A DNA stretch of 64,000 nt from assembly GCF_039880525.1 (NCBI RefSeq), contig NZ_CP156989.1, positions 186,001 through 250,000 of the forward strand, written 5' to 3'. The notes under the pieces are model-generated. The model had not been told where the DNA came from. It did no database searches and saw nothing but the letters and a program-made list of their open reading frames with translations. This DNA comes from Agrococcus sp. ProA11. Its GTDB lineage: Bacteria > Actinomycetota > Actinomycetes > Actinomycetales > Microbacteriaceae. Position 1 is the first letter of the stretch, and each line of letters starts with the position of its first letter. This document shows positions 42,902 through 63,020 of the stretch, piece by piece. The position numbers and the translations under genes were made by a program.

Positions 42902-43717
42902 TTAGAAGTCGGAGCCAGACGGGCGCGTCTGGGCTCGGGTGGTGGGGACTGCGACGTCGGCATCCAGGTGCGCCTGCGCATCCGTCGTCGCGTCCTTCTT
43001 GGGGCCGCGGCGATTGGGGACGGCGCCGAGGCGCTTGGCGAGCACGGTCAGCGCCCACTGGATGGCCTGCACGAGCACGAACAGGATGATGACGACGCCG
43101 ACGATGTGGAGCACGCTGTAGCGCTGCATGCCGTAGGTGAGGGCGACGTTGCCGAGGCCGCCGCCGCCGACCACGCCGACCATCGCCGAGAAGTTGATGA
43201 TCGAGGTGATGGTGGTGGCGGTGCCGAGCAGGATCGCCGGCCATGCCTGCGGCAGCAGCACGCGCTTGACGAGCAGCCAGCGCGAGGCGCCGAGCGACTC
43301 GGCCGCCTCGAACAGGCCAGGGTCGACTTCGCGCACGGCGATCTCGACCACGCGCACGAAGAAGGGGATGGCGACGAGCGTGAGCGGCACGATCGCGGGC
43401 CCGGTGCCGATGAACGAGCCGAGCAGCCAGCGGGTGAGCGGGATGAGCGCGATCATCAGCACGATGAACGGCACCGAGCGGCCGAGGTTCACGATGAAGC
43501 CGAGCAGCCGGTTGATGGTGGTGCCGAGCCAGCGCTGGCCGAGCGGCGCCTCCAGGAAGCGCCCGCGCTCGGTGCCGACCAGGATGATGCCGAGCGGCAG
43601 GCCCACGGCGAAGGTGATCGCCATGGCGATGCCCGTCATGTAGACGGTCTCCCAAGTGCCCTCGAGCAGCACCTCGATGAGCTTCTGCCAGAAGTCGGGC
43701 GCGTTGACGTCGATCAC
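42902..43717 (-). CDS. metI: Methionine ABC transporter permease
   Basis: The 271-residue permease has five to six membrane helices and the EAA loop AAESLGASRWLLVKRVLLPQA typical of the MetI family. The N-terminal segment FWQKLIEVLLEGTWETVYM precedes helix 1. A charged tail of about 45 residues (KRLGAVPNRRGPKKDATTDA) is longer than usual. The start overlaps the metN stop by four bases (ATGA). Confidence 0.93.
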   Translation of the reverse strand: MIDVNAPDFWQKLIEVLLEGTWETVYMTGIAMAITFAVGLPLGIILVGTERGRFLEAPLGQRWLGTTINRLLGFIVNLGRSVPFIVLMIALIPLTRWLLGSFIGTGPAIVPLTLVAIPFFVRVVEIAVREVDPGLFEAAESLGASRWLLVKRVLLPQAWPAILLGTATTITSIINFSAMVGVVGGGGLGNVALTYGMQRYSVLHIVGVVIILFVLVQAIQWALTVLAKRLGAVPNRRGPKKDATTDAQAHLDADVAVPTTRAQTRPSGSDF

Positions 43718-44700
43718 GGGTGCACCTCCCAGGCGGTGACGCCCTGCGCGGTGAGCGAGTCGATCACCTTGAGGGCGACGGATGCGTCACCGGGCACGGC
43801 GAGGCGAGTGCGGCCGGCCTGCTGGCCGCCGATGGTCTCGAGGGCGGCGCCGAGGATCGAGACGTCGAGACCGAAGTCGCGGCTCAGCTGCGCAATGACC
43901 GGCCGGTCGGCGCTGAGGCCCGTGTAGGTGACGTCGATGACGCGGTGGCCGGGCATGTAGTGCGCCTCGCCGACGGGGAAGAGCTCGGCGGCGATGCGGG
44001 AGCCGGGCGTGCGAATTAGGTCATCGAGCTGCCCCTGCTCGATGACGCGGCCGGTCTCCATGAGTGCGGCGGCGTCGCAGATGCGCTTGACGACTTCCAT
44101 CTCGTGCGTGATGAGCAGCACGGTGAGGCCGAGCTCGCGGCTGAGGCGACGGATGAGCTCGAGGATCGAGCGGGTGGTCTCGGGGTCGAGGGCGCTGGTG
44201 GCCTCGTCGCTGAGCAGCACGTCGGGGCCGGAGGCGAGGGCACGGGCGATGCCGACGCGCTGCCGCTGACCGCCGGAGAGCTGGCCGGGGCGGTCGTCGG
44301 CGCGGTGGGCGAGGCCGACGAGGTCGAGCATCTCGAGCGCCTTCGGGCGGCGATCCTTGCCCGGCGTGCCGACCGCTTCGAGCGCGAACTCGACGTTCTG
44401 CGCCACGGTGCGGTTGCCGACCAGATTGAAGTGCTGGAAGACCATGCCGATCTGGTGGCGCTCCTTGAGCAGCGCCTTGCCGCTCAGCGCGGTGACGTCG
44501 ACGCCGCCGACGACGACGCGGCCGCTGTCGGGCCGCTCGAGCGCATTGACGGTGCGCAGCAGAGTCGACTTGCCGGCGCCCGACTGCCCGACGACCCCGA
44601 AGATCTGCCCCTTCGCCACCTCGATGGAGACGTCGTCGAGCGCGACGACGGCGTCGGGGCCGTCGCCGAAGCGGCGGCTGACGTGCTCGATCGAGATCAT
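43714..44700 (-). CDS. metN: Methionine ABC transporter ATPase with NIL domain
   Basis: The 328-residue ATPase has Walker A GQSGAGKST, signature LSGGQRQRVGIARAL, Walker B LLSDEATSALDPETT and switch His in LLITHEMEV. A C-terminal NIL domain (residues about 250-328) would sense methionine inside the cell and shut the transporter. It is the first gene of metNIQ. I looked for a SAM-type riboswitch in the 190 bases upstream and saw none. Confidence 0.94.
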   Translation of the reverse strand: MISIEHVSRRFGDGPDAVVALDDVSIEVAKGQIFGVVGQSGAGKSTLLRTVNALERPDSGRVVVGGVDVTALSGKALLKERHQIGMVFQHFNLVGNRTVAQNVEFALEAVGTPGKDRRPKALEMLDLVGLAHRADDRPGQLSGGQRQRVGIARALASGPDVLLSDEATSALDPETTRSILELIRRLSRELGLTVLLITHEMEVVKRICDAAALMETGRVIEQGQLDDLIRTPGSRIAAELFPVGEAHYMPGHRVIDVTYTGLSADRPVIAQLSRDFGLDVSILGAALETIGGQQAGRTRLAVPGDASVALKVIDSLTAQGVTAWEVHP

Positions 44701-44892
44701 GGAACTCCAAGCGGGGGCGCGGTCAGCGCCCTGAGAAAGTGGTGGGTGAGCTCATCGTCGACGGCGAGCTATCAGACATTGTCTCGCGGATGCGGTGACG
44801 GCGCGAGCATGTGACGTTGCGTGACGCCCGTGGTGCAGCGACCTAACTCTCAGCGCCCCGATCGAAGAAGTGGCCACGGAAGCCGGCCAGCT

Positions 44893-45969
44893 CTAGTCGA
44901 GGCCTACGGCTTCTCCCCCAGAACGTAGGGGCGTCGAACGCAGCAGCAGCTGAGACTCAATGGCTGATTGCGCTGCAGACCGATGCCATTCGACCCACGG
45001 GGCACTTGCGGCAATGGCAGAGGCGGGAAGCAAGACGTGTGAGCTCACGTGCGAGAAAGCCGCCTGCCAAGAGGCGTCACGAGATATGGCCCGCTCGAGA
45101 GGTCGAGACACTTCAATTCTGCCGTCTGATTGCACCGTCAAGAGATGAGCCTCGAACGCGGCATCGTGCGTGGGGCAAGCGGCGAAGCCGTTGCTCGAAG
45201 AGTTTCGCTCTGTCCTGGAGGAATGTCGCCAAGGCTTAATGTGGCCAGCAACCAGCATTCGCGCAGACGGCAGTCCAACTCGGCGCGTGCTCAGTCCGCA
45301 GAACACGCAGCAGAAGTTGGACCGTTCCAGAACAGCCCTTGCGAAACGCTGTTGAGACAATCGAACGGATACGACGCGCTGCACTGTTGTAAGGGCGCCA
45401 TCGCCCGATGTCGAGCTCGCTTCGATTGATTCCCACAGCTGGTCGTCGCTGATTCGGCTGGCGTCGATGACCGCACGCAATTGGCCGGAGCCGTTCCCGA
45501 GAAAATCACTGAGGCGGTCATCGCTGATCCCTTCTGCGCGAGCAGCGTCAATCGCGCGCGCGTAGTAGGAGGCGAAACGATCGAGGTCTGAGGCGAAGAA
45601 CTGGCCGACTGCTGGGTCGGAGAAGCGGCCGCCATCACGACCAGGTCGCGCTTCGAGGTTAGAATGCTTGCTTTGCAGGCTCCCGGGCGGCCGGCCGAGC
45701 AGAACAGCTATCTGCTTCGTCACGGGCGACGCCTTCTTCACGTTCACGAAACCACTGGGAGAAGGGTCCGTTGCGAGTCCGAGGGCGAAGCAGAGCATCG
45801 TCTCGACCGGGAGGAAGTCCGCCCGCGCAGCACGGCCCTCGCGGGCGAGCACTTGCCGCCACATTTTCGCAAGCTCCTCGTCTGAGGGGTCGACGAAACG
45901 TCGGAGATCGTCGTTCGTAACAGCGGAGAAGGCCGCCGTTGCTGATGTGAGTTCTCTCTCTAGTGACAT
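44893..45969 (-). CDS. HNH endonuclease, probable restriction enzyme
   Basis: Residues 1-200 of this 358-residue protein are a helical domain of unknown fold with NVKKASPVTKQIAVLLGRPPGS, a segment common in HNH restriction proteins. Residues 205-290 hold the HNH nuclease: a C221-x2-C224 pair (FCCVFCG), H243 in AGHIKPW, N260, C265 and H268 in GFAACPTHDAAFEAHLL. The zinc-finger HNH is of the type found in type II restriction enzymes with C5-cytosine methylases. The methylase gene at 48258-49352 and two forward genes between complete the locus. The text is visibly richer in A/T than the met operon beside it. The sequence recognised is unknown. Confidence 0.85.
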   Translation of the reverse strand: MSLERELTSATAAFSAVTNDDLRRFVDPSDEELAKMWRQVLAREGRAARADFLPVETMLCFALGLATDPSPSGFVNVKKASPVTKQIAVLLGRPPGSLQSKHSNLEARPGRDGGRFSDPAVGQFFASDLDRFASYYARAIDAARAEGISDDRLSDFLGNGSGQLRAVIDASRISDDQLWESIEASSTSGDGALTTVQRVVSVRLSQQRFARAVLERSNFCCVFCGLSTRRVGLPSARMLVAGHIKPWRHSSRTERNSSSNGFAACPTHDAAFEAHLLTVQSDGRIEVSRPLERAISRDASWQAAFSHVSSHVLLPASAIAASAPWVEWHRSAAQSAIESQLLLRSTPLRSGGEAVGLD

Positions 45970-46219
45970 GGTGAACGAATCTTGGCACGAGACGTCTGTG
46001 ACGCACGACTGCCGGATCTGCGCCGCTGCACTAGATAGGAATGGTCATCCGGGGTTGGCAACCGACTCCAGGGGTCAGCTCGGTTCGCGATCGGCCGCGT
46101 GACGAAAGCGCTGGAGAGGACCCGGCGTCGCTTTGCAGCGTACTACGCCCGCCGAGGAGTGGCGCGCGGGGCCGTCCACGACCAACTACTCTGGCGTGCA
46201 GCGCAACCATTGGAGCCTC

Positions 46220-47308
46220 GTGCGAACCATTCCTGATGTCGCTCTGTCCGACCTCTTACTCGACTCAGACAATCCTCGACTGCCGCGTGGACTCGATGAT
46301 CGCTCTCAACAGGCGATGCTAGTCCACCTCTATCGCCGCGCGGCTCTGCAAGAGCTTGCAGAATCTATCTACTCGAACGGCTACTTCTCGAGTGAGCCGT
46401 TGATCGTTTCGGGAGCCGACGCATCTGGCAAACGAACGGTCCTGGAAGGCAACCGGAGACTTGCGACGTTGCTCATCCTTGCTCAGGACCCGCGCGCGAC
46501 AGCCGGCGATCTTGTCTTCAGAGTAGACGGGCAAGCAGTTACCCACGACGCAACTGCGGTCCCGGCAGTCGAGGTAGACGACCCGGACGAGTTTGAGGCG
46601 TATCTCGGCTTCCGCCACATCAGTGGACTACGCATGTGGGGGGCGGGTGAAAAGGCGGCGTACTTGTGGTCCCGCGTGACCGAATCTGCTCAGCCTGAGG
46701 AGGCCTTCTACCTTGTAGGCCGCCAGGTCGGGAGCAACGCCCGGGGAGTGCGAAGCGCGTACATTGCGTATGAGCTACTCGAGTTCGGCCGAGGTGCGGG
46801 GATCGCGGATAGTCTCATTGACTTCGTCCTCTCAGAGCGATTCGGAGTGTGGACGCGTCTCTTGGGCACCCGGAACATCGCGAGTTTCATCGAGCTGGAC
46901 ACATCGGCCACGACACGGACAGAGGTGGATGCAGCGATCTCTCGAGTCTCAAAGCGCCGCCTTGAGTCAGTGCTTAGCGACTTGCACCCGCGGCCAGGGA
47001 GATCGGAGGCCGTGCTCCGAGACAGCCGACAAGTCACGGACTACTCGGATGCGATCGGCGACGAAGCGGCACTGGCGGTGCTTCGCGCGAGCGGCAATCT
47101 TGATCTGGCAGCCGCGGTAGCCAACCGACCAGAAGTCGACGCTCAAATACAAGAGATGGTCGACCGGGTGGACATTCTTGTTCAGTCGGTTTCGGACGGC
47201 GCAGCGATGACGGGGCAATCCCAATCATTGGCCGATCGCCTGCTCGCGAGCGTTCGCCTGTTGAAGGCGGCGGTGGCGGCGTTCGCGGACGCGGACGCTG
47301 ACGCATGA
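46220..47308 (+). CDS. ParB/sulfiredoxin-like N-terminal domain protein
   Basis: From the GTG at 46220 the product has 362 residues. The start fits a ParB-like fold: IPDVALSDLLLDSDNPRLP, then ELAESIYSNGYFSSEPLIV and the nucleotide-binding VLEGNRRLATLLIL motif at about 80-92. The rest is helical with no clear motif. ParB/Srx-like domains are CTP- or ATP-binding and occur in many conflict systems. A TTGGAG site precedes the GTG; the frame is open further left to 46133 but without coding character. It overlaps the next gene by four bases. It lies inside the restriction locus, between nuclease and methylase. Confidence 0.75.
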   Translation: MRTIPDVALSDLLLDSDNPRLPRGLDDRSQQAMLVHLYRRAALQELAESIYSNGYFSSEPLIVSGADASGKRTVLEGNRRLATLLILAQDPRATAGDLVFRVDGQAVTHDATAVPAVEVDDPDEFEAYLGFRHISGLRMWGAGEKAAYLWSRVTESAQPEEAFYLVGRQVGSNARGVRSAYIAYELLEFGRGAGIADSLIDFVLSERFGVWTRLLGTRNIASFIELDTSATTRTEVDAAISRVSKRRLESVLSDLHPRPGRSEAVLRDSRQVTDYSDAIGDEAALAVLRASGNLDLAAAVANRPEVDAQIQEMVDRVDILVQSVSDGAAMTGQSQSLADRLLASVRLLKAAVAAFADADADA

Positions 47309-48261
47309 GCGGGAGCGCTGCGGCGATCTCCATCTCCGTCGACGGCTACGGAAAATATGCGCGCGCGAGCTTGCTCGCTGACTTTCTGGAGTTGATCGCT
47401 CTCCGCAGGGGCTCCGCGCTACAGACTGACCTTCAGCTAAGCCTCGAGCGGGACAACTGGCATCGCGTCAGACGCGGCCTGTTCACAGTGGATCCGGACT
47501 TCGAGCTCGACCAGGTCGAAGAACTCGAAGGCGAAGACGGGACCGAGGATCCGGGGGATGCGGATTGGCCGCAATGGGCAATGGCGTTGATTCGGCAGCG
47601 GCTGGACGTGCTCGGAACCTCGTACCCTTTCCGGGTCCTGAGTGACGGAATCGAAGCGCGATCAGATTCTGCAAGCTCAGAATATTCGCGGCTCTTGGCG
47701 TTGACCCTCGCGCACGTGCACTCTGCGCCGCTCGAGAATGATCCACGCGAGACCTTCGAGCTTGTTGTCGTCGCCTCCCTCGGCTCAGCGGGGCTTCGCT
47801 CTGTCGGGATGGGGACCGCCACCTCTAAGGGCAAGGCTTTTCCGCTTCAACTTCAGGAGTCGGCCGCGGCAGTCGGCCTATTCTCTGCGCCGGTGCCGAA
47901 GCCAGCGAAGGTTTTCGCGAAGGATGCCGGCGTGGATGCGATTGCCGTTTTACACTGGGGAGATCGGCGGCCCGGGCAGCTGATTCTGATTGCTCAGGCG
48001 ACAATGACTGAGAGTGCACAGTGGGAAAGAAAAATCGCTGAGCCGAAGGCGCATCACTGGGCAAACTATCTACTAGAGGCAGTGAACCCGATCTCTATGC
48101 TCGCCGTTCCATACCACGTGGAGGACGATCACTTCCGTTATCTTCTCGCGCCCGGGGCGACTATCGTCGATCGACTGCGCCTAGTAGGAAAGCTCGGGCC
48201 GGTGTCGGTAGGAGAAGTTGAAGCATTGACCTGGTTGCGCTCGGCACAGCTGGAATACTAG
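47305..48261 (+). CDS. Putative PD-(D/E)XK-like nuclease of the restriction locus
   Basis: The 318-residue protein has no firm family. A candidate nuclease core lies at about 205-245: Asp211 in VDAIAVLHWGDRRPG, then QLILIAQATM with Gln231, and Lys243 after Trp240. The order D, strand with GQLxxxxQ, W, K recalls the Q-variant PD-(D/E)XK enzymes. The N-terminal region is acidic (DQVEELEGEDGTEDPGDADW). It is coupled to the ParB-like gene (ATGA overlap). Its stop and that of the methylase share CTAG, so the two genes are convergent. It may be the second effector of the locus. The nuclease call is an inference. Confidence 0.7.
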   Translation: MSGSAAAISISVDGYGKYARASLLADFLELIALRRGSALQTDLQLSLERDNWHRVRRGLFTVDPDFELDQVEELEGEDGTEDPGDADWPQWAMALIRQRLDVLGTSYPFRVLSDGIEARSDSASSEYSRLLALTLAHVHSAPLENDPRETFELVVVASLGSAGLRSVGMGTATSKGKAFPLQLQESAAAVGLFSAPVPKPAKVFAKDAGVDAIAVLHWGDRRPGQLILIAQATMTESAQWERKIAEPKAHHWANYLLEAVNPISMLAVPYHVEDDHFRYLLAPGATIVDRLRLVGKLGPVSVGEVEALTWLRSAQLEY

Positions 48262-49352
48262 GCAGCGAGAGTGCGGTCTTGACGCTCGGTGGTTCCACCG
48301 GCTAGCGCAGTCCTGAGCGTATCTGCGACCGCCTGGGCCAGCAGGGGCGGGACGGCGTTGCCGATATTGCGCAAGGTTGCCGAGACTGTTCTGTGCCAGG
48401 AGACAGCAGCCGGGAACGTTTGCAGCACAGCCGCCTCTGTCACCGACAGTCGGCGCCACGCTTCGGGAACAGCGGGGTGTCCGCCGTCGAGCACCGAACG
48501 GTGGTACTCAATAATCGATGTACCGGCTTCACTGGGGTCGTCAAGCCATGCCTGGTCAATGATGGGCGTGTGATTCCCGCCTAGAGATGCGCTAAGTGTT
48601 GGGGCGACAGACTCCAGGTTGAGTGGGCGTCCTTGACCATTGAAGAGCATTCCAGCGAACGGCGAAGCGCGAGTGACCGGATTGCTTGCCGGAACAATAC
48701 GCGCCCGACAGTGTTGCCAGACCTCCTGCTCTTCAAAATGCGAAATTGAGGACAGCGCTGATCGTATTGTCCTGGGCGTGATTAGCGGAGCGTCATCCAA
48801 TGCTTGCATTGTACCCTCGGACGCTTCGTTCGCCGTGATCCCGACCAGAAACATGCGGTGACGAGTCTGTGGCACCCCGTGGTCCGCAGCATTCATGACA
48901 AGGATCTTCGACGCGTAACCGAGGTTATCCGCGCGACGCAGTATATCGTCGCGGACGAGTCGCCACTTGGCATCTAGTGCCAGAGATCGCACGTTCTCCA
49001 TCACAAATGCTCGCGGCCTAACGGCGGCGACGGCGTCGAGGAAGCGTCTGACGTGTTGCGATCTCGGGTCCTCGGGGTCCATGCGGCCGGCTCGCGAGAA
49101 ACCCTGACACGGTGGGCCGCCGACAAGAACAGCATCCTCATGGCGACCGATCACTGAGTAGTCATCGCTTATGTCACCTAAGCGGAAATGGCGAGAGGGC
49201 AGAACTATCCCCGCACTGGCCATCAACGCAGAGTAGTTGAAGGCTGCGAACCGATCGACATCATTTGCAAAAATGGGGGAAAATCCCGCGCGCACGAATC
49301 CAAGATCTAGTCCGCCGGTCCCGGAGTAAAGCGAGATCAGAGGAGTTGACAC
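48258..49352 (-). CDS. C5-cytosine DNA methyltransferase
   Basis: The 364-residue enzyme carries the ordered motifs of the Dcm family: I SLYSGTGGLDLGF at the N-terminus, IV GGPPCQGFSRAG with the catalytic Cys, VI FVMENVRSL, VIII VPQTRHRMFLVG, and IX-X near the end (LQTFPAAVSW, IGNAVPPLLAQAVAD). It methylates C5 of cytosine in an unknown site and protects the host from the restriction partner. The GTG at 49352 has GGGAGGG upstream; the frame is open further, but without that site. It is convergent with the PD-(D/E)XK-like gene. Confidence 0.93.
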   Translation of the reverse strand: MSTPLISLYSGTGGLDLGFVRAGFSPIFANDVDRFAAFNYSALMASAGIVLPSRHFRLGDISDDYSVIGRHEDAVLVGGPPCQGFSRAGRMDPEDPRSQHVRRFLDAVAAVRPRAFVMENVRSLALDAKWRLVRDDILRRADNLGYASKILVMNAADHGVPQTRHRMFLVGITANEASEGTMQALDDAPLITPRTIRSALSSISHFEEQEVWQHCRARIVPASNPVTRASPFAGMLFNGQGRPLNLESVAPTLSASLGGNHTPIIDQAWLDDPSEAGTSIIEYHRSVLDGGHPAVPEAWRRLSVTEAAVLQTFPAAVSWHRTVSATLRNIGNAVPPLLAQAVADTLRTALAGGTTERQDRTLAA

Positions 49353-49869
49353 CTTGTTTGCCCTCCCGCGAAGCTGGATCAACGCGCGTCGACCTCCACG
49401 ACGCAGCATGAGCCTCGATGGCTCAGTTGGTGGCAGGTTTTCACGGCTAGCGCTTATCGCTCACAAGCGCTCGCGCCAGTCTACCTCTGTCGCGAGGGGA
49501 CAACGCCGCGACGTGACGGGGCTGTGGACTGGCTGGCCAGGGTGTGAGCCGCGGGGCCGCTAGCTTTCTGCCCCGCGCGTCCCCACGAGAACAATTGCCG
49601 CTCGGTCGCCTGGTGCAGGTCGCGCGCGGGCTGCCCGGCTCTCGGTGGTCTCGCGCTCCCACCGCACGGTCGGCATCAGCGTGTCCCTGGCTTCCTCGAT
49701 GTCCTCTCGTCAGGCCGGTACGCGGCATATGGCGGCACGCGGCGCTCGAGTTCGTGGGCGCCGTGCCGCAGGATCGCCGCGACTCTCGTCACCAGTCGGC
49801 TCGGATCGAGATTGGCACGGGTGAGCGTGGCGCTCTGCGGCACGATGGTGCGGTGCTCAAGCCGCCTCG

Positions 49870-50256
49870 TCAGCTTGCCCCCGATGTTCGCGAATCAGAC
49901 CGCCTGTCAGATCGGGTACCCCGGGACGCGCCCCTTTCGCTTGATCTAATTCCGGATGCTGCGACTGGTGTCCAGGCCCGGTAATACGGGGAGCGCGTCG
50001 TGGGCTCAGCGCCGCCGAAGCGCCATCCTTCGTCGTCGACGCTGATGCCCGCGTGCAACTTCACCTCGACCACGAGGATGCCCTCGCCCGGCACCGTGGT
50101 GACGAAGTCGGTGTCGCGGTCCACATCAGTGTCGTGGTGACGGATGGACAGGCCGTGCCAGACGAGCCAGCACTCGGTGCCGGGGTGGTCGCGCAGCGAC
50201 TCGAAGACTGTTGCTTCGCCGGAGGGCGATCGAGGGCGCGTGACCGCGGGCCGCAT
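49870..50256 (-). pseudogene. NERD (nuclease-related) domain remnant
   Basis: The frame reads PSGEATVFESLRDHPGTECW, LVWHGLSIRHHDTDVDRDTD, FVTTVPGEGILVVEVKLHAG and SVDDEGWRFGG. This follows the NERD domain (GExxVFxxLRD, DFVVxxPGxGVxxxEVKxG, W), including the DF and EVK residues of its PD-(D/E)XK site. After about residue 80 the frame turns to Arg/Ser-rich nonsense and no helicase follows. Normal NERD-UvrD proteins are much longer. It is a remnant of a second defence-type gene in the island. Confidence 0.65.
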
Positions 50257-50337
50257 TGAAGCAATGCATGGAGCGTATCGAGCGGATCGACCAAACCCAG
50301 CCGTTCGATCGAGGTCCTGCCGGTCGCGGGCCGATCA

Positions 50338-50520
50338 TCAGATGCAGCTGTGGTTGAAGCCGGCCGCAATAGTCGAGGCGGCTGAGCAGTCGATGAACAT
50401 TCTCGTGTAGATGCTCGCGCCCACGTACTCGACGCCCCAGTCGCAACTCTGGTGGCTGGTTCCGCTGCCGATGGACATCTTGATCTTTCGAATCCCGATG
50501 CTCGGAAGGCGGCCGGCCAC
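50338..50520 (-). CDS. Small Cys/Ser/Thr-rich ORF, unassigned
   Basis: The frame from GTG 50520 (or ATG 50478, 46 residues) reads MSIGSGTSHQSCDWGVEYVG, then ASIYTRMFIDCSAASTIAAG, ending FNHSCI. Three cysteines with many Ser/Thr near the end look more like a real exported or modified peptide tail than chance, but no signal peptide or ribosome site is convincing. It could be the end of a broken secreted protein gene. Confidence 0.25.
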   Translation of the reverse strand: MAGRLPSIGIRKIKMSIGSGTSHQSCDWGVEYVGASIYTRMFIDCSAASTIAAGFNHSCI

Positions 50521-50876
50521 ATGGAGCGCGCAGCTTGGAGCTGCGAATCACCGCTGATCCCCGCGTGGGACTGATCATCATGCCGCGGTCGAAGGGCGGG
50601 CCCATGGGTGTTCAGCAACGGGAAGGCGCTCTGCAGGATGCACTCTCGCGCCGAGGGCGCTTCGCGCACCGACCGGCTCATTCGCCTGGCCGACCAGCCT
50701 CTTCTGTGATCCGTCGCACTTCGAGGGACAAGCCGCCAACTGAGAGGCCTAGCGACAGGGCTCCGCCGCGGACCATTGCGTACCCGGGCGAGCCATTCTA
50801 GCCCGGTGCAGGGGCCGCACCATCCAGTTCGCCGACGTCGCAGGCGACCCGGCGTGAGTGAAGATCTGCAAGAGCT

Positions 50877-53800
50877 TTACGAGCCTTGGTCGAGGAGTCG
50901 GGGCTCCCATAGGCGTAAGCCGTCATGGGTGAACGCCAGATAGCCCTCGATTCGCTCATTGTCATGGCGGCCCTTGATGACGCCAGCTCGCTGCGGAACG
51001 AAAAAAGCCGGCATGCCTTTCACGTCTGCGGTGCCGGCTTGCGGTCCGCGGATCTGGCTCACCCGCGCCTGAACAGTTCGTAGTCGCGTGGTATCCGCCC
51101 AGAAGTCCAGAGCGGGGTCCCATTGGCCCAGTTCAGAGTGATGTACGAGCGAAGCAATACCGTCCCCATCGCCGTACCAATCCAACGACCGGGTTCTCGT
51201 CCCTTCGTTGCGTGCGATATCCGCACTCCTTCTAGCGTGTTTGACAGCGTCAGGCAGAGAACTCGGAAGGTCTTCCAAGACGTCTAGAGCGTAAGCGACG
51301 GCCGAGCAATATTCGGCATCGAGGCACGGATTGGACGCACGCCAGTACGCCAGGATTTCTTTGACTCGTTCGTGCGAGACTGCCGGGTTCTTTAGGCGAA
51401 CCGCCCTCCACCATGCCAGCGCGTCGGCAGACGCGTAGCCTGCCTGGGTAAGGTTCTCGTCTAGCAGCGATATGACGCGCACCACCTCACGGGGCGTCAA
51501 AGAGCGCCAGTCTCGGCCCGCGCGGGCAAGGTAAGTCCAAACTATCTGGCGCCTAACTATAGGAGGCGGCACAGGACCCTTGGTGAGCATGCCATCGAGA
51601 AGTTGCAAGGACCGCTCGTAGTCGCCGTACAAGCGGTTGAGCTTCGCTCTTTCTGTTTGTTCGAAGCCGCTTTGCTGGCGCGGGTCGCCGCGGTAGCGCA
51701 GCGTAGAGATCAGGTCTTCGGCCTTTTCGACGCACGCCACCACAAGCGGGTGTGGGGCACTAGCGAGATACTTTGCAAGTGTCGCGCCACGTGTGCCGTA
51801 TTCAACCACGCGAATACGCATCTGAATTTCGCTCACGAAGCCATAGTCCTTTGATCCCGACCCCTTCTCGCGAGAGACCGAGAACTCCTCTGCGGAATCG
51901 TTGACCCATGGAGCGAGTTCGTCCAGTGGGATCCGGCGGCCGATGCCGTCGTAGACGCGCGCTCGGTGGACCATGCCGAGTATGTGATGAAGCGTGGCGT
52001 TGTCCGGCGCCAGGCTGCTTGCGTGCCGCGCGAAGTGTTCAGCTTTGACGAAATTGTTCAGCCGGAAAGCGAAGTAGCGGGCCGTGTGGGCCCAGAGGTG
52101 GGCGTCGTTGGGCCGTCGATTAGCGACATATGTCAGGAGCTCCGCGGCACCGTCACGCGAAGGGATTCGCTCGATTAGCCTGGCGAACGTCTCCCGAGCG
52201 CTGTCACCTCCGGAGGCTCCGGCGCCGTCCCCGCGGTCGGTGAAGACGCTCTCGATGAGCTGCTGCATCGCGTCGTCCTCGCCACCGGCAAGACAGAAAT
52301 CAGCAAATGTCATGCCCCATCTCGCAAGCGCGTGTTTCCATTGCACATCGTCGCCCCCGCCAAGCTGCCTGAGAACCTCCTCCGCAATCAGCGCATGGGT
52401 AGTCCTCCATTCGCCATCACTGGATCTCCACAGCAACCCGCGCAATTCAGGCGCCAAAGTACGTGCGAAGCCCCCCGCTCGTGAGGGTGGCAGCCCTACC
52501 AGTCGCGCCAGCGCATACTCGGGAACTGCGGACTGGCCGAAAAAGTGCGCGAAACTGCAGACTAGTATGGCCTCCCGCTGGACGCCTTCAATCCCGATCA
52601 GCCTGCCCGACACGAACGACTCGAGGCCGTGAAATTCTTCTTCGAAGGCGACGAGCCCGAAATAGAACGCATTTCGTCGATGGTCTGAATACGATGCGAT
52701 CGCTTCGAGATTTCGCTTAGCTGTGTAGGCGCGTGCAGCGTAGGCGTCGACGAACGCGGCGGCTTCGTTGTCGGCTAGCACCTCAGGCAGATATGGCGAG
52801 GACGACTGCGTCGACGGCGGCGAGTAACGACGCGACACGGCCAGAACCACAGCAGGAACTGAAAGCGCGTGCAAATCATTGGTTAGAGCCGCGATTTGGT
52901 CTTCCCGAAGGTGTGGCGAGTCGCACACCACCAGGACGGCGTTCTTGCTCTGCCTCACCACGGCATCGATACGCTTGGCCGTTTCTCCTTCGCGGAAGCG
53001 ATGGAGGAAGACCACGGGGAATCTCGTCCTGATGTTGAACCCAAGACGTCTGGCGACCGTTGTTCCGCCGGCGCCAGGAGCGTGGAACAGATTCTGACGG
53101 ACCGTTCTGCGCTTACCGAGCATGCCGAGCAATTGCCGCTGCAGGCTCGCAGTCTCGGTGCGAGTCACGTCAGCGTCTCGAGCGAGAGCCGCAGGCGTTA
53201 GTTCTCCGCCACGTAGGAAGTCGAGAGCGTCAGCGTCTGCGGTGGAGGTGTCGGGATCTGCCGCCCAGTAGATAGTGCCATCCTCGGCGATCCAAGCCGC
53301 GTCTTCCCGCGAGATCTCGACCGACCCTTCCGGCCCCGGCACTATGCGTTGAGACGGAGATTCTAATGCTGGAGACAGCGGACTCAGCGCATCCATCAAA
53401 CCAGACGGAGAGAGCGCAATCCGGAAATCCGGCTCAAGCGCGCGGCCTGCCCCTAGCGTGCCGATATACGCGCGCTCGCCAAATTCCGTGAGGAGGTCAT
53501 CGACTATCGCGGAGAGCCAGGGACTCCACTCGCTGCCTGCATCATCAGCAATGAGCACGGTAATCCGTCGACCGCCGAAGGTCGCCGAGAAGTTGCCAAG
53601 CAAGGCACGCCAAGGCTTGCGCAGCGTACGTGTCCACTCCGTTGTCAGTTCGGCTGCCGAGTCGAATCCTCGGACGCTCAGCCAAGCTGTGGCACTTCGC
53701 CCGAGCGGAGGAGGGTTAGTCGGGGAGCCGAGATGCACAGGCTGCCGCGCGACGATCTCCGCCCTAACTTTGGAGAGAAGCCCATCTGCATCGGTCGCCG

Positions 53801-54698
53801 GGTCAAGGTCGACTACCATGGCGAACGGCAGGCCTCCCATGATCGCTGCTTCGGCTCGCGGGGAGCCGACGGGGGCGACTAGGACGAAGCACTCCGACGC
53901 CCCCGGTAAGGGGAGTCCCGCGGCCAGGACGTCTCCGCTCGCCTGCGCGAGTGGCACACTAAGTCCAAGCTTGCTGTCCCAAGCAGCGATGAGGCGAAGT
54001 GCTACTGTCCGCGCGTTTTCTGTCGCTTCCTTCTGACTACCACCCGCGTCGCTTTCCGATTTCGCTGCAATCAGATCTGACACCCCACGCACTATGAAGA
54101 AGTCAGGTGTAATTTCCGCGCGGTCGATTGCCGCTAGCACCGCGTTGCCCTCCATCTCAAGAGCCAGAGCGTCGCCACTGTGCGCGTGAATTCGCGCGAG
54201 CTCGTCGGACTTGACGTCCGCGATTACCTTCTCGCCGCTGGCCAGCGCGCCAACGAAGATCTGGAATGACGCCAAATTTGGCTGTGCCCGGATTCTTCGC
54301 GCGATACCGGCAAGAGTCGCTGGCACCGTTCTTGTGTCAGATCTCGCCTGAAAAGCGCCGTCGACAAGTTTGCCTGATTCGTAATAGTAAACCTTGTCGG
54401 CCACTACGACGTCACCGATTGCAACGTCCTTGATTCCTCCAGCAACTCCGATGAACAGGACGAGACGCGGCTGGTACTTCTCGATTGCGCTGAGCGTAGA
54501 CATTCCCGACTTGGTGGACCCGACGCCAACTTCAACGAGCGCAACAGAAAGGCTCCTCCCCTCAAACTCCAGGCGGCCACGTATCGCTGGATCGTTGAGA
54601 ACAGGATCTTCGACAGGGTCGCTCACGAGCGTTTTGAGTGAGTCCCATTCAACTGGAACTGCGCAAAGCAGCAGTACTTCTACCCCGTCGACGCGCAT
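50877..54698 (-). CDS. Nucleoside phosphorylase-STAND NTPase-helical repeat conflict protein (SAMD9-like)
   Basis: From the ATG at 54698 (TGAGG six bases before) the product has 1273 residues. Residues 5-245 are a PNP/MTA-SAH nucleosidase-type domain: LLLCAVPVEWDSLK, LFIGVAGGIKDVAIGDVVV, E181-M182-E183 in ALEMEGNAVLAA and S207-D208 in VRGVSDL, the catalytic glutamate and aspartate. A spacer domain with VSVRGF-like strands follows (270-480). The P-loop is APGAGGTTVARRLGF (540-547 core), with Walker-B-like AVLVVCDSP about 45 residues on, then helical domains and TPR-like repeats (about 830-1190). The end, FFVPQRAGVIKG and GYLAFTHDGLRLWEP, is probably an OB-like domain. This order is known from SAMD9-like STAND NTPases of animals and bacteria. 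Confidence 0.82.
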   Translation of the reverse strand: MRVDGVEVLLLCAVPVEWDSLKTLVSDPVEDPVLNDPAIRGRLEFEGRSLSVALVEVGVGSTKSGMSTLSAIEKYQPRLVLFIGVAGGIKDVAIGDVVVADKVYYYESGKLVDGAFQARSDTRTVPATLAGIARRIRAQPNLASFQIFVGALASGEKVIADVKSDELARIHAHSGDALALEMEGNAVLAAIDRAEITPDFFIVRGVSDLIAAKSESDAGGSQKEATENARTVALRLIAAWDSKLGLSVPLAQASGDVLAAGLPLPGASECFVLVAPVGSPRAEAAIMGGLPFAMVVDLDPATDADGLLSKVRAEIVARQPVHLGSPTNPPPLGRSATAWLSVRGFDSAAELTTEWTRTLRKPWRALLGNFSATFGGRRITVLIADDAGSEWSPWLSAIVDDLLTEFGERAYIGTLGAGRALEPDFRIALSPSGLMDALSPLSPALESPSQRIVPGPEGSVEISREDAAWIAEDGTIYWAADPDTSTADADALDFLRGGELTPAALARDADVTRTETASLQRQLLGMLGKRRTVRQNLFHAPGAGGTTVARRLGFNIRTRFPVVFLHRFREGETAKRIDAVVRQSKNAVLVVCDSPHLREDQIAALTNDLHALSVPAVVLAVSRRYSPPSTQSSSPYLPEVLADNEAAAFVDAYAARAYTAKRNLEAIASYSDHRRNAFYFGLVAFEEEFHGLESFVSGRLIGIEGVQREAILVCSFAHFFGQSAVPEYALARLVGLPPSRAGGFARTLAPELRGLLWRSSDGEWRTTHALIAEEVLRQLGGGDDVQWKHALARWGMTFADFCLAGGEDDAMQQLIESVFTDRGDGAGASGGDSARETFARLIERIPSRDGAAELLTYVANRRPNDAHLWAHTARYFAFRLNNFVKAEHFARHASSLAPDNATLHHILGMVHRARVYDGIGRRIPLDELAPWVNDSAEEFSVSREKGSGSKDYGFVSEIQMRIRVVEYGTRGATLAKYLASAPHPLVVACVEKAEDLISTLRYRGDPRQQSGFEQTERAKLNRLYGDYERSLQLLDGMLTKGPVPPPIVRRQIVWTYLARAGRDWRSLTPREVVRVISLLDENLTQAGYASADALAWWRAVRLKNPAVSHERVKEILAYWRASNPCLDAEYCSAVAYALDVLEDLPSSLPDAVKHARRSADIARNEGTRTRSLDWYGDGDGIASLVHHSELGQWDPALDFWADTTRLRTVQARVSQIRGPQAGTADVKGMPAFFVPQRAGVIKGRHDNERIEGYLAFTHDGLRLWEPRLLDQGS

Positions 54699-55332
54699 CG
54701 AAACCTCATTCATCTGGCTTGCTCGTGGCCTTGAGTATGCCCGAGTTTCCGGACGAGAGCGAGCGTCCCGATAATGTGGTCTGGCTGGTCACATCACGCC
54801 CGAGCCGCAGATGGCTGGGGGAGCACTAAGACAGCATCGAATTTTGCTCGCGTACCTGCCGTCCGTGTAGTGGTGGTGGTTGCGGCGATCAGCATCGTTA
54901 ACATCATGACCGGCGCCCCTTGCAGTGGCGCACAGGTGGTGACGCGCTCGATCCCGTCGATGTGTTGGGCAGCTCTGTTGCTAATCGTGCGGCACAACCT
55001 GCTCAGCGAGGATTCTGAGGGAGTAGCCCTCAGCAGCCCCCTCCCGCTTCGCGATTGTGTGCTTCTGGAAGCCGTGTTCAGCGGTCGAGAATGAGAGCCG
55101 ATACTGCTCGCCGGCCATGACGGCCTGTTCAAGCCGGTGGACCGGATTGTCAGGCTCACTAGATACTCTGGCCGGGCGTCGTTCTTGAGCGATCGGCGAA
55201 ACAGCCGCCCGACGACTTCTGCTGCGAGCCGCTGAAGTCCATCGCGCGGAAGCCTGGTCCAGCGTGGTCACCAGTGCCGACCGCGTCATTCCGAGCGCGG
55301 CGCCGCTTCGAAAGTGGCAGTAGCGTCGAAGC
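54699..55332. other. Intergenic region right of the defence island
   Basis: About 630 bases with no convincing gene. A 45-codon reverse frame at 54981-55118 reads AGEQYRLSFSTAEHGFQKHT, then IAKREGAAEGYSLRILAEQ; it has some coding character, but its origin is unknown. The A/T-richer text of the island fades out around here, so the right island border probably lies in this stretch. No direct repeats or integrase remnants were recognised. Confidence 0.4.
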
Positions 55333-55536
55333 ATGAACGAGACGATCACACCGGTAGAGCTGTCACGCGAGCTGGGCATGGACCGCAAAGGTCGGCAGAT
55401 TCGCGGCTTCCTGCGGAACCCCGCCGACGGCGGAGGACCGTTCGAGGGGCATGAGATCGGGACCGAGTGGCATCTGACGCCGGAGCAGGCGGATCGGATT
55501 CGGAAGCACTTCGGGAAAGACGGGTCGGTCTCGTGA
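55333..55536 (+). CDS. Small hypothetical protein (DNA-binding-like helix pair)
   Basis: The 67-residue product reads ITPVELSRELGMDRKGRQIR, then GFLRNP, HEIGTEWHLTPEQADRIRKH. Two helical segments with a turn, ELSRELG and LTPEQADRIR, are typical of small actinobacterial hypothetical proteins that accompany methyltransferase or repair genes. I do not know its function. Its end overlaps the first hairpin repeat of this region by ten bases. Confidence 0.65.
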   Translation: MNETITPVELSRELGMDRKGRQIRGFLRNPADGGGPFEGHEIGTEWHLTPEQADRIRKHFGKDGSVS

Positions 55537-62325: not shown

Positions 62326-62685
62326 CTACTCCCAAGACTGGGGTGAAGCGATGTGTCTGCGGAGTTCCATCGCGTCGCGGAGTATTCGACCGACCACCAG
62401 CGTCTCGCCGTCGTATCGGCAGATCAGGAAGTGACGCGGGCGGTGCACCCTTCCACCTGCCGAGTGCCTGTTGCTCTGCGCCAGATGCCACGAGAACACG
62501 CCATCCCCGAGTTCAGGGCGCATCGTTCGCCCGACCCCGTCTACATGCGAGGCCACGTCTCGGATCGCCGCGGTGATCAACGCCTCGTATCGAAAGCGCG
62601 CTTCTGCACCGAACTCGGCGTGCGACCAAGCGAGAATCGAGACGATGTCGGACTGGGCTGCGTGGGTGAGCCGATACTTCGCCAT
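62326..62685 (-). CDS. parE: ParE/RelE-type toxin
   Basis: The 119-residue protein follows the ParE pattern: YRLTHAAQSDIVSILAWSHAEFG, a Tyr/Arg helix region and FLICRYDGETLVVGRILRDAMELRRHI at the end. It is somewhat longer than the usual 95-100 residues because of an insert around HLAQSNRHSAGGRVHRPRH. ParE toxins poison DNA gyrase. The ATG at 62685 shares one base with the antitoxin stop (TGATG), so the pair is coupled. Confidence 0.85.
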   Translation of the reverse strand: MAKYRLTHAAQSDIVSILAWSHAEFGAEARFRYEALITAAIRDVASHVDGVGRTMRPELGDGVFSWHLAQSNRHSAGGRVHRPRHFLICRYDGETLVVGRILRDAMELRRHIASPQSWE

Positions 62686-62972
62686 CAGTCGGCTGACTGA
62701 GCCTCTGCCGCGCGACTGCCGAGCTGCCGCACGAAGTCGTCGAGAGTGTCGTCCTCGACGTCGTCGAAGCGCCCCGCGGAGAGATCCGACCAGCCGTGCT
62801 GAGCGGCTCGACGAAGAACGGCGATCTTGGCCTGCTCTTCAGCGTTCTCGCGCTCCAGCAGCCGAAGCCCGTCGCGCAGCACCTCGCTGGCGTTCTGATA
62901 GCGCCCAGATTTCACCAGCGACTCGACGAGCTCATGCTGGTGCTGGCTGAGAACGACGTTCCTCGTGGCCAC
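62685..62972 (-). CDS. parD: ParD-type antitoxin
   Basis: The 95-residue antitoxin starts TRNVVLSQHQHELVESLVKS and GRYQNASEVLRDGLRLLE, a ribbon-helix-helix DNA-binding domain, then a long acidic helix ending in DDTLDDFVRQLG that would wrap the toxin. A CGAGG site lies before the GTG at 62972; GTG 62981 is the alternative. It would repress its own operon through a palindrome upstream, which I did not identify. Confidence 0.87.
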   Translation of the reverse strand: MATRNVVLSQHQHELVESLVKSGRYQNASEVLRDGLRLLERENAEEQAKIAVLRRAAQHGWSDLSAGRFDDVEDDTLDDFVRQLGSRAAEAQSAD

Positions 62973-63020
62973 GGCGATCACCTCGATTGGCAGTATATGC
63001 CATTGCCGCGGTGCGGGTGG

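Follow-up and report, generated by a model that had tools for sequence, protein, structure and literature searches.

A single gene in the 64,000-nt stretch of DNA analysed here (the window) encodes a protein whose core is homologous to SAMD9. We propose, with a probability of roughly 65%, that it is a bacterial SAMD9-family protein of the STAND type working as a single-gene defence switch with a candidate nucleotide-cleaving PNP head. The course we infer, from the trigger and NTP binding through switching to substrate and outcome, is one of phage sensing and abortive infection. In the resting state, the protein would be kept inactive by its TPR and C-terminal regions; once a phage-derived or infection-linked signal is sensed, the core, with NTP bound via its lysine-less P-loop, would rearrange or oligomerise; the PNP head thus activated would cleave a purine nucleotide, possibly ATP or dATP, at its N-glycosidic bond; and phage production would be stopped, the cell being sacrificed. 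Cleavage of dATP was reportedly observed by Rousset et al. 2023. The searchable literature yielded no phage-defence assay of this protein or of bacterial SAMD9 relatives.

The gene is intact and lies on the minus strand (Table 1). The initial annotation had given the same coordinates and 5' end, and no strand. The longest ORF (50877-54713) comprises 1278 aa, with an in-frame ATG at 54713 adding 5 aa; the ATG at 54698 is the better start, since GAGG is found 5 nt upstream of it and GGAGG precedes the equivalent ATG in both full-length relatives. Residue numbers refer to the 1278-aa frame throughout, and subtracting 5 converts them to the 1273-aa frame of the initial annotation. The two full-length relatives (L002 and L003) come from two other actinobacteria, Labedella endophytica and Williamsia muralis, at 66% and 64% identity respectively, which excludes a chance ORF.

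Table 1. Features of the gene, of the protein it encodes and of the neighbouring low-GC3 genes (positions in the window; residues in the 1278-aa frame)
Feature	Position	Strand	Remarks
Intact gene	50877..54698	minus	1273 aa; start ATG at 54698
PNP/nucleosidase head	53988..54674	minus	residues 14-242; Pfam PF01048, alignments, tree
Region colinear with the SIR2-like part of SAMD9	53229..53894	minus	residues 274-495; six-sequence SAMD9 profile match begins here
STAND-type P-loop module	52794..53228	minus	residues 496-640; SAMD9 profile match and weak nSTAND_NTPase5/7
Lysine-less P-loop HAPGAGGTT	53058..53084	minus	residues 544-552; upstream histidine conserved
Helical region linking P-loop module to TPR array	52182..52793	minus	residues 641-844; inside continuous SAMD9 profile match, helices in model
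TPR-type helical array	51204..52181	minus	residues 845-1170; SAMD9 match at 843-951, repeats at pLDDT mostly 75-94
Five-stranded barrel, probable OB fold, with GYLAFTHDGLRLWEP segment	50895..51077	minus	residues 1213-1273; predicted model
HNH gene	44893-45969	minus	low-GC3 cargo
ParB-like gene	46133-47308	plus	low-GC3 cargo; matches PD-Lambda-5_A models
318-aa protein without family match	47305-48261	plus	low-GC3 cargo; 4-base overlap with ParB-like gene
C5 methylase	48258-49409	minus	low-GC3 cargo
NERD remnant, truncated	49870-50256	minus	low-GC3 cargo

A search of solved structures with the single sequence matched SAMD9 at residues 843-951 (E=0.0012), and core profiles built from three, four and six sequences matched it at E=2e-9, 1.8e-18 and 1.8e-31, respectively; next after SAMD9 in the six-sequence search were IFIT TPR proteins (7.8e-05). 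The six-sequence alignment is colinear and continuous, pairing profile positions 19 to 711 with residues 271-1036 of the 1450-residue SAMD9 chain, and takes in the SIR2-like part upstream of the P-loop. Searched alone, this SIR2-like region gave nothing significant, and model confidence is low to moderate there. The nSTAND_NTPase5 model scored 17.3 bits on the window protein, against a cut-off of 34 bits, versus 36.8 and 35.3 on relatives with the same core. The P-loop of the rare GAGGTT type pointed out in the initial annotation is indeed present (Table 1): HxPGxGG[TS] is kept in all six proteins with the core, and the aligned SAMD9 chain reads HHPGCGGTT. A P-loop without the Walker lysine and with an upstream histidine is a signature of the SAMD9 family according to Mekhedov et al. 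(PMC5445408). As the catalytic lysine is missing, just as in SAMD9 itself, this P-loop may bind NTP rather than hydrolyse it.

Structure prediction gave a concordant picture. Six sequences were used to model the core with AlphaFold2 (mean pLDDT 77.9, pTM 0.58); this model, superseding an earlier four-sequence one that was too weak (pLDDT 55), retrieved SAMD9 structures first in a fold search (E=3.9e-31, TM-score about 0.4, ~1200 alignment columns), followed by the Avs5 filaments (E=1.7e-10). Profile and fold both match the central region to SAMD9, as had been suggested from the sequence; the domain arrangement in the model is not trustworthy, given the modest TM-score and high rmsd. The TPR-like region of the initial annotation appears as TPR-type helices in the predicted model. 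Its C-terminal OB-like domain fared less evenly: the model contains a five-stranded barrel (959-968, 972-977, 980-984, 1000-1008 and 1011-1019 in core numbering) whose strands are compatible with an OB fold and whose GYLAFTHDGLRLWEP segment is conserved in relatives, while the C-terminal part searched alone gave no sequence-profile match.

At the N-terminus, PNP_UDP_1 (PF01048) is matched at E=2e-19. The catalytic E-M-E and S-D previously read in this domain correspond to E186-M187-E188 and S212-D213, both conserved and, by alignment, intact across relatives. E22, M187, E188, S212 and D213 do not vary when the head is aligned with the PNP heads of STAND proteins, an MTA/SAH nucleosidase, a Detocs-like PNP from Klebsiella and a SAVED-CBASS PNP from Nostoc; they correspond to E12, M173, E174, S196 and D197 of the MTA/SAH nucleosidase (MTAN). 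Judged from the alignment and its intact catalytic residues, the substrate pocket appears undisrupted. PNP heads from STAND proteins and from orphan PNP proteins are 33-38% identical to this head, the CBASS PNP (Nostoc) 29%, the Detocs-like PNP (Klebsiella) 25% and the MTA/SAH nucleosidase 24%. The head also has YESGK and GEKV segments in common with its counterparts in STAND and CBASS proteins, along with two lysines, K115 and K162, that are found in STAND-type and CBASS heads (K115 in the Detocs-like head as well) and are both absent from the nucleosidase compared; one may speculate that they contact phosphates. A PNP tree groups the head with STAND and orphan PNPs, and was used for this broad grouping only, several of its forks being weakly supported and one branch (Detocs) very long. 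In sequence, the head has more in common with the PNP domains of STAND and other defence proteins than with MTA/SAH nucleosidases. The host chromosome carries one further PF01048 gene, so that the head is not the sole enzyme of its superfamily in the cell.

The core is rare. In 84,980 species genomes, a pattern scan, which is sensitive to close relatives only, returned just the two full-length relatives above; profile searches of further genomes added three more core proteins (L027, L021 and L028), all from one bacterial family, putatively Streptomycetaceae, which share 27-31% core identity with the window protein. Their N-termini differ from that of the window protein: L027 carries SLFN_AlbA_2 (E=2.4e-11) where the window protein has PNP, L021 has a TCAD9-like N-terminus, and the N-terminal part of the longer L028 aligns with that of L021. 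The AlbA_2 domain is the tRNase effector of SAMD9 (PMC12331169, PMC13245274); since a relative with the same core bears this domain there, the PNP domain of the window protein sits in the effector position. L028 (8369-14461) and L021 (7359-12203) have long C-terminal extensions beyond the SAMD9 core, the one in L028 containing repeated segments that look OST-HTH/LOTUS-like by eye and have no Pfam match. Two further matches, in G258/L015 and G102/L013, were discarded for want of a plausible homologous ORF in that frame.

Mobile elements yielded little. No relatives were found on viral contigs; in phage records the core had no match and the PNP head alone matched, in one Leptospira phage. Plasmids returned PNP heads only, neither the window core nor the cores of two putative Streptomycetaceae relatives being matched. 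Among the plasmid-borne genes, a stand-alone PNP-like gene lies near a BREX PglW gene in Streptomyces (L064:2474-3280), and in Calothrix two divergent phosphorylase-family genes flank a small membrane-protein gene (L067:332-4116), an arrangement resembling effector-plus-membrane-protein pairs.

With SAMD9 and SAMD9L the window protein has in common the colinear SIR2-like region, the lysine-less GGT P-loop with its upstream histidine, the TPR array and, as predicted, a C-terminal barrel, but it bears a PNP head instead of AlbA_2/tRNase and lacks both SAM and DEATH-type domains. According to PMC5445408, some SAMD9-family members have lost AlbA_2, which is therefore not family-defining. Immune PNP effectors (Cap17 in CBASS and NLR-like systems; Detocs) share the PF01048 fold, the catalytic residues and the fusion to a sensor or switch; their switch, however, is SAVED, a response regulator or NB-ARC, whereas that of the window protein is SAMD9-type. 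Fusions of PNP to STAND modules in Streptomyces and cyanobacteria (e.g. WP_331763507.1, PNP-NB-ARC-TPR) share the N-terminal PNP, YESGK and GEKV-like segments and a central STAND NTPase, but this NTPase matches NB-ARC/AAA models. Avs5 (SIR2-STAND), whose structural similarity to SAMD9 was noted previously (PMC12931631), is the second-best fold match to the window core; it differs by its head, and its match is much weaker than that of SAMD9. In PADLOC, PDC-M60C and one PN-superfamily effector model were matched, both via the PNP head, and no Avs model matched the window protein.

PNP effectors on other switches are already known, and actinobacterial relatives of SAMD9, kinase-headed ones among them, were described in 2017 (PMC5445408). 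A literature search, covering only a minority of subscription journals and none of bioRxiv's own records, turned up no report of a SAMD9 core with a PNP head. As a broader and more tentative proposal, to which we would give slightly less than even odds, the SAMD9 core could be a bacterial immune chassis in which the N-terminal effector is exchanged (AlbA_2 tRNase, PNP nucleosidase, TCAD9-like) and the switch kept constant, here driving an ATP/dATP nucleosidase. If so, the switch of a human disease gene would become open to study in bacteria through a nucleotide-depletion readout. SAMD9 and SAMD9L are human antiviral and disease proteins, for whose activation a compact bacterial relative bearing an enzyme head of predictable chemistry would be a tractable model; as one host has this core with a tRNase-type head and another has it with a nucleosidase-type head, switch and effector could be studied apart. 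Catalogues of phage defence would gain a rare, horizontally moving, single-gene candidate of which PADLOC caught only the head.

On the chromosome, the gene is flanked by metN (43714-44700) on one side and by a small conserved gene (55333-55536, 67 aa) on the other, and the interval they bound (window 43714-55536) forms a spot that varies from species to species within the genus: in congeners where both flanks were found it measures 4 to 10 kb and its content differs. Genes found beside metN in congeners comprise C5 methylases, DrmA of DISARM, a type IV restriction enzyme, and ParB and adenine methylase genes; metabolic genes also occupy the spot in some of them. The A/T-richer DNA and the neighbouring restriction locus remarked on in the initial annotation are both borne out: GC3 is 0.62-0.68 for the main genes at 44.9-54.7 kb, versus about 0.9 in most flanking genes, and HNH, C5-methylase and ParB-like genes lie in the same interval. 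Together with the 318-aa protein, these (window 44893-49409) possibly form one compact restriction-type system. The HNH endonuclease is weakly related to phosphorothioate-dependent restriction enzymes, and a 573-aa version of the NERD protein occurs at the same chromosomal spot in a congener (L048:5586-7307). The gene itself has a GC3 of about 0.66 in the window host, Labedella and Williamsia, below most neighbours in each, and this atypical composition in three hosts indicates horizontal transfer. Its distribution is not that of a housekeeping gene: in a search of 149 related genomes, no congener carried it. The three full-length copies have no conserved neighbour in common, so that the gene appears to be a one-gene system; the Labedella and Williamsia copies lie in no obvious defence island, an N6/N4 methylase and Imm33 being among the nearest hits, in Labedella only.

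These data also bear on other readings of the protein. The head could make a signal or act on a small metabolite (MTA, SAH or a modified nucleoside) and thereby regulate other machinery with no depletion of the nucleotide pool, base release being an alternative signalling mode for a PNP head (PMC7159879). Fold and catalytic residues are those of MTA/SAH nucleosidases, which are also the best PDB matches to the head in single-sequence searches. We nevertheless consider this reading unlikely: the head scores far under the cut-offs of curated MTA/SAH nucleosidase models (72.7 vs 169 and 48.3 vs 73.8 bits), is closer to immune PNP heads, and has no conserved receptor gene adjoining it in the two full-length relatives. 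It further departs from MTAN in that the GDxFI phenylalanine is a valine and a 1000-aa switch is fused to the enzyme.

Less probable still, the protein might exclude plasmids or integrative elements, or be an addiction-like module, instead of being directed at phages. Foreign composition and a variable chromosomal spot would suit such a role, but the cargo of congeners in that spot consists mostly of restriction and defence genes, and no antitoxin-like partner recurs next to the relatives. We assign an equally small chance to a role in regulating stress responses or development, outside immunity. Such a role recalls the signal transduction that Mekhedov et al. (PMC5445408) proposed for bacterial SAMD9 relatives with kinase domains; the very sparse distribution, the evidence of horizontal transfer and the head, which is of a type usual in immune effectors, argue against it. 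The defence switch with a nucleotide-cleaving head thus stays our preferred reading. As for the rest of the window, it contains no tRNA genes, and at 62326-62981 a ParD-family antitoxin adjoins a small ParE/RelE-type-like ORF, making up a probable toxin-antitoxin pair.
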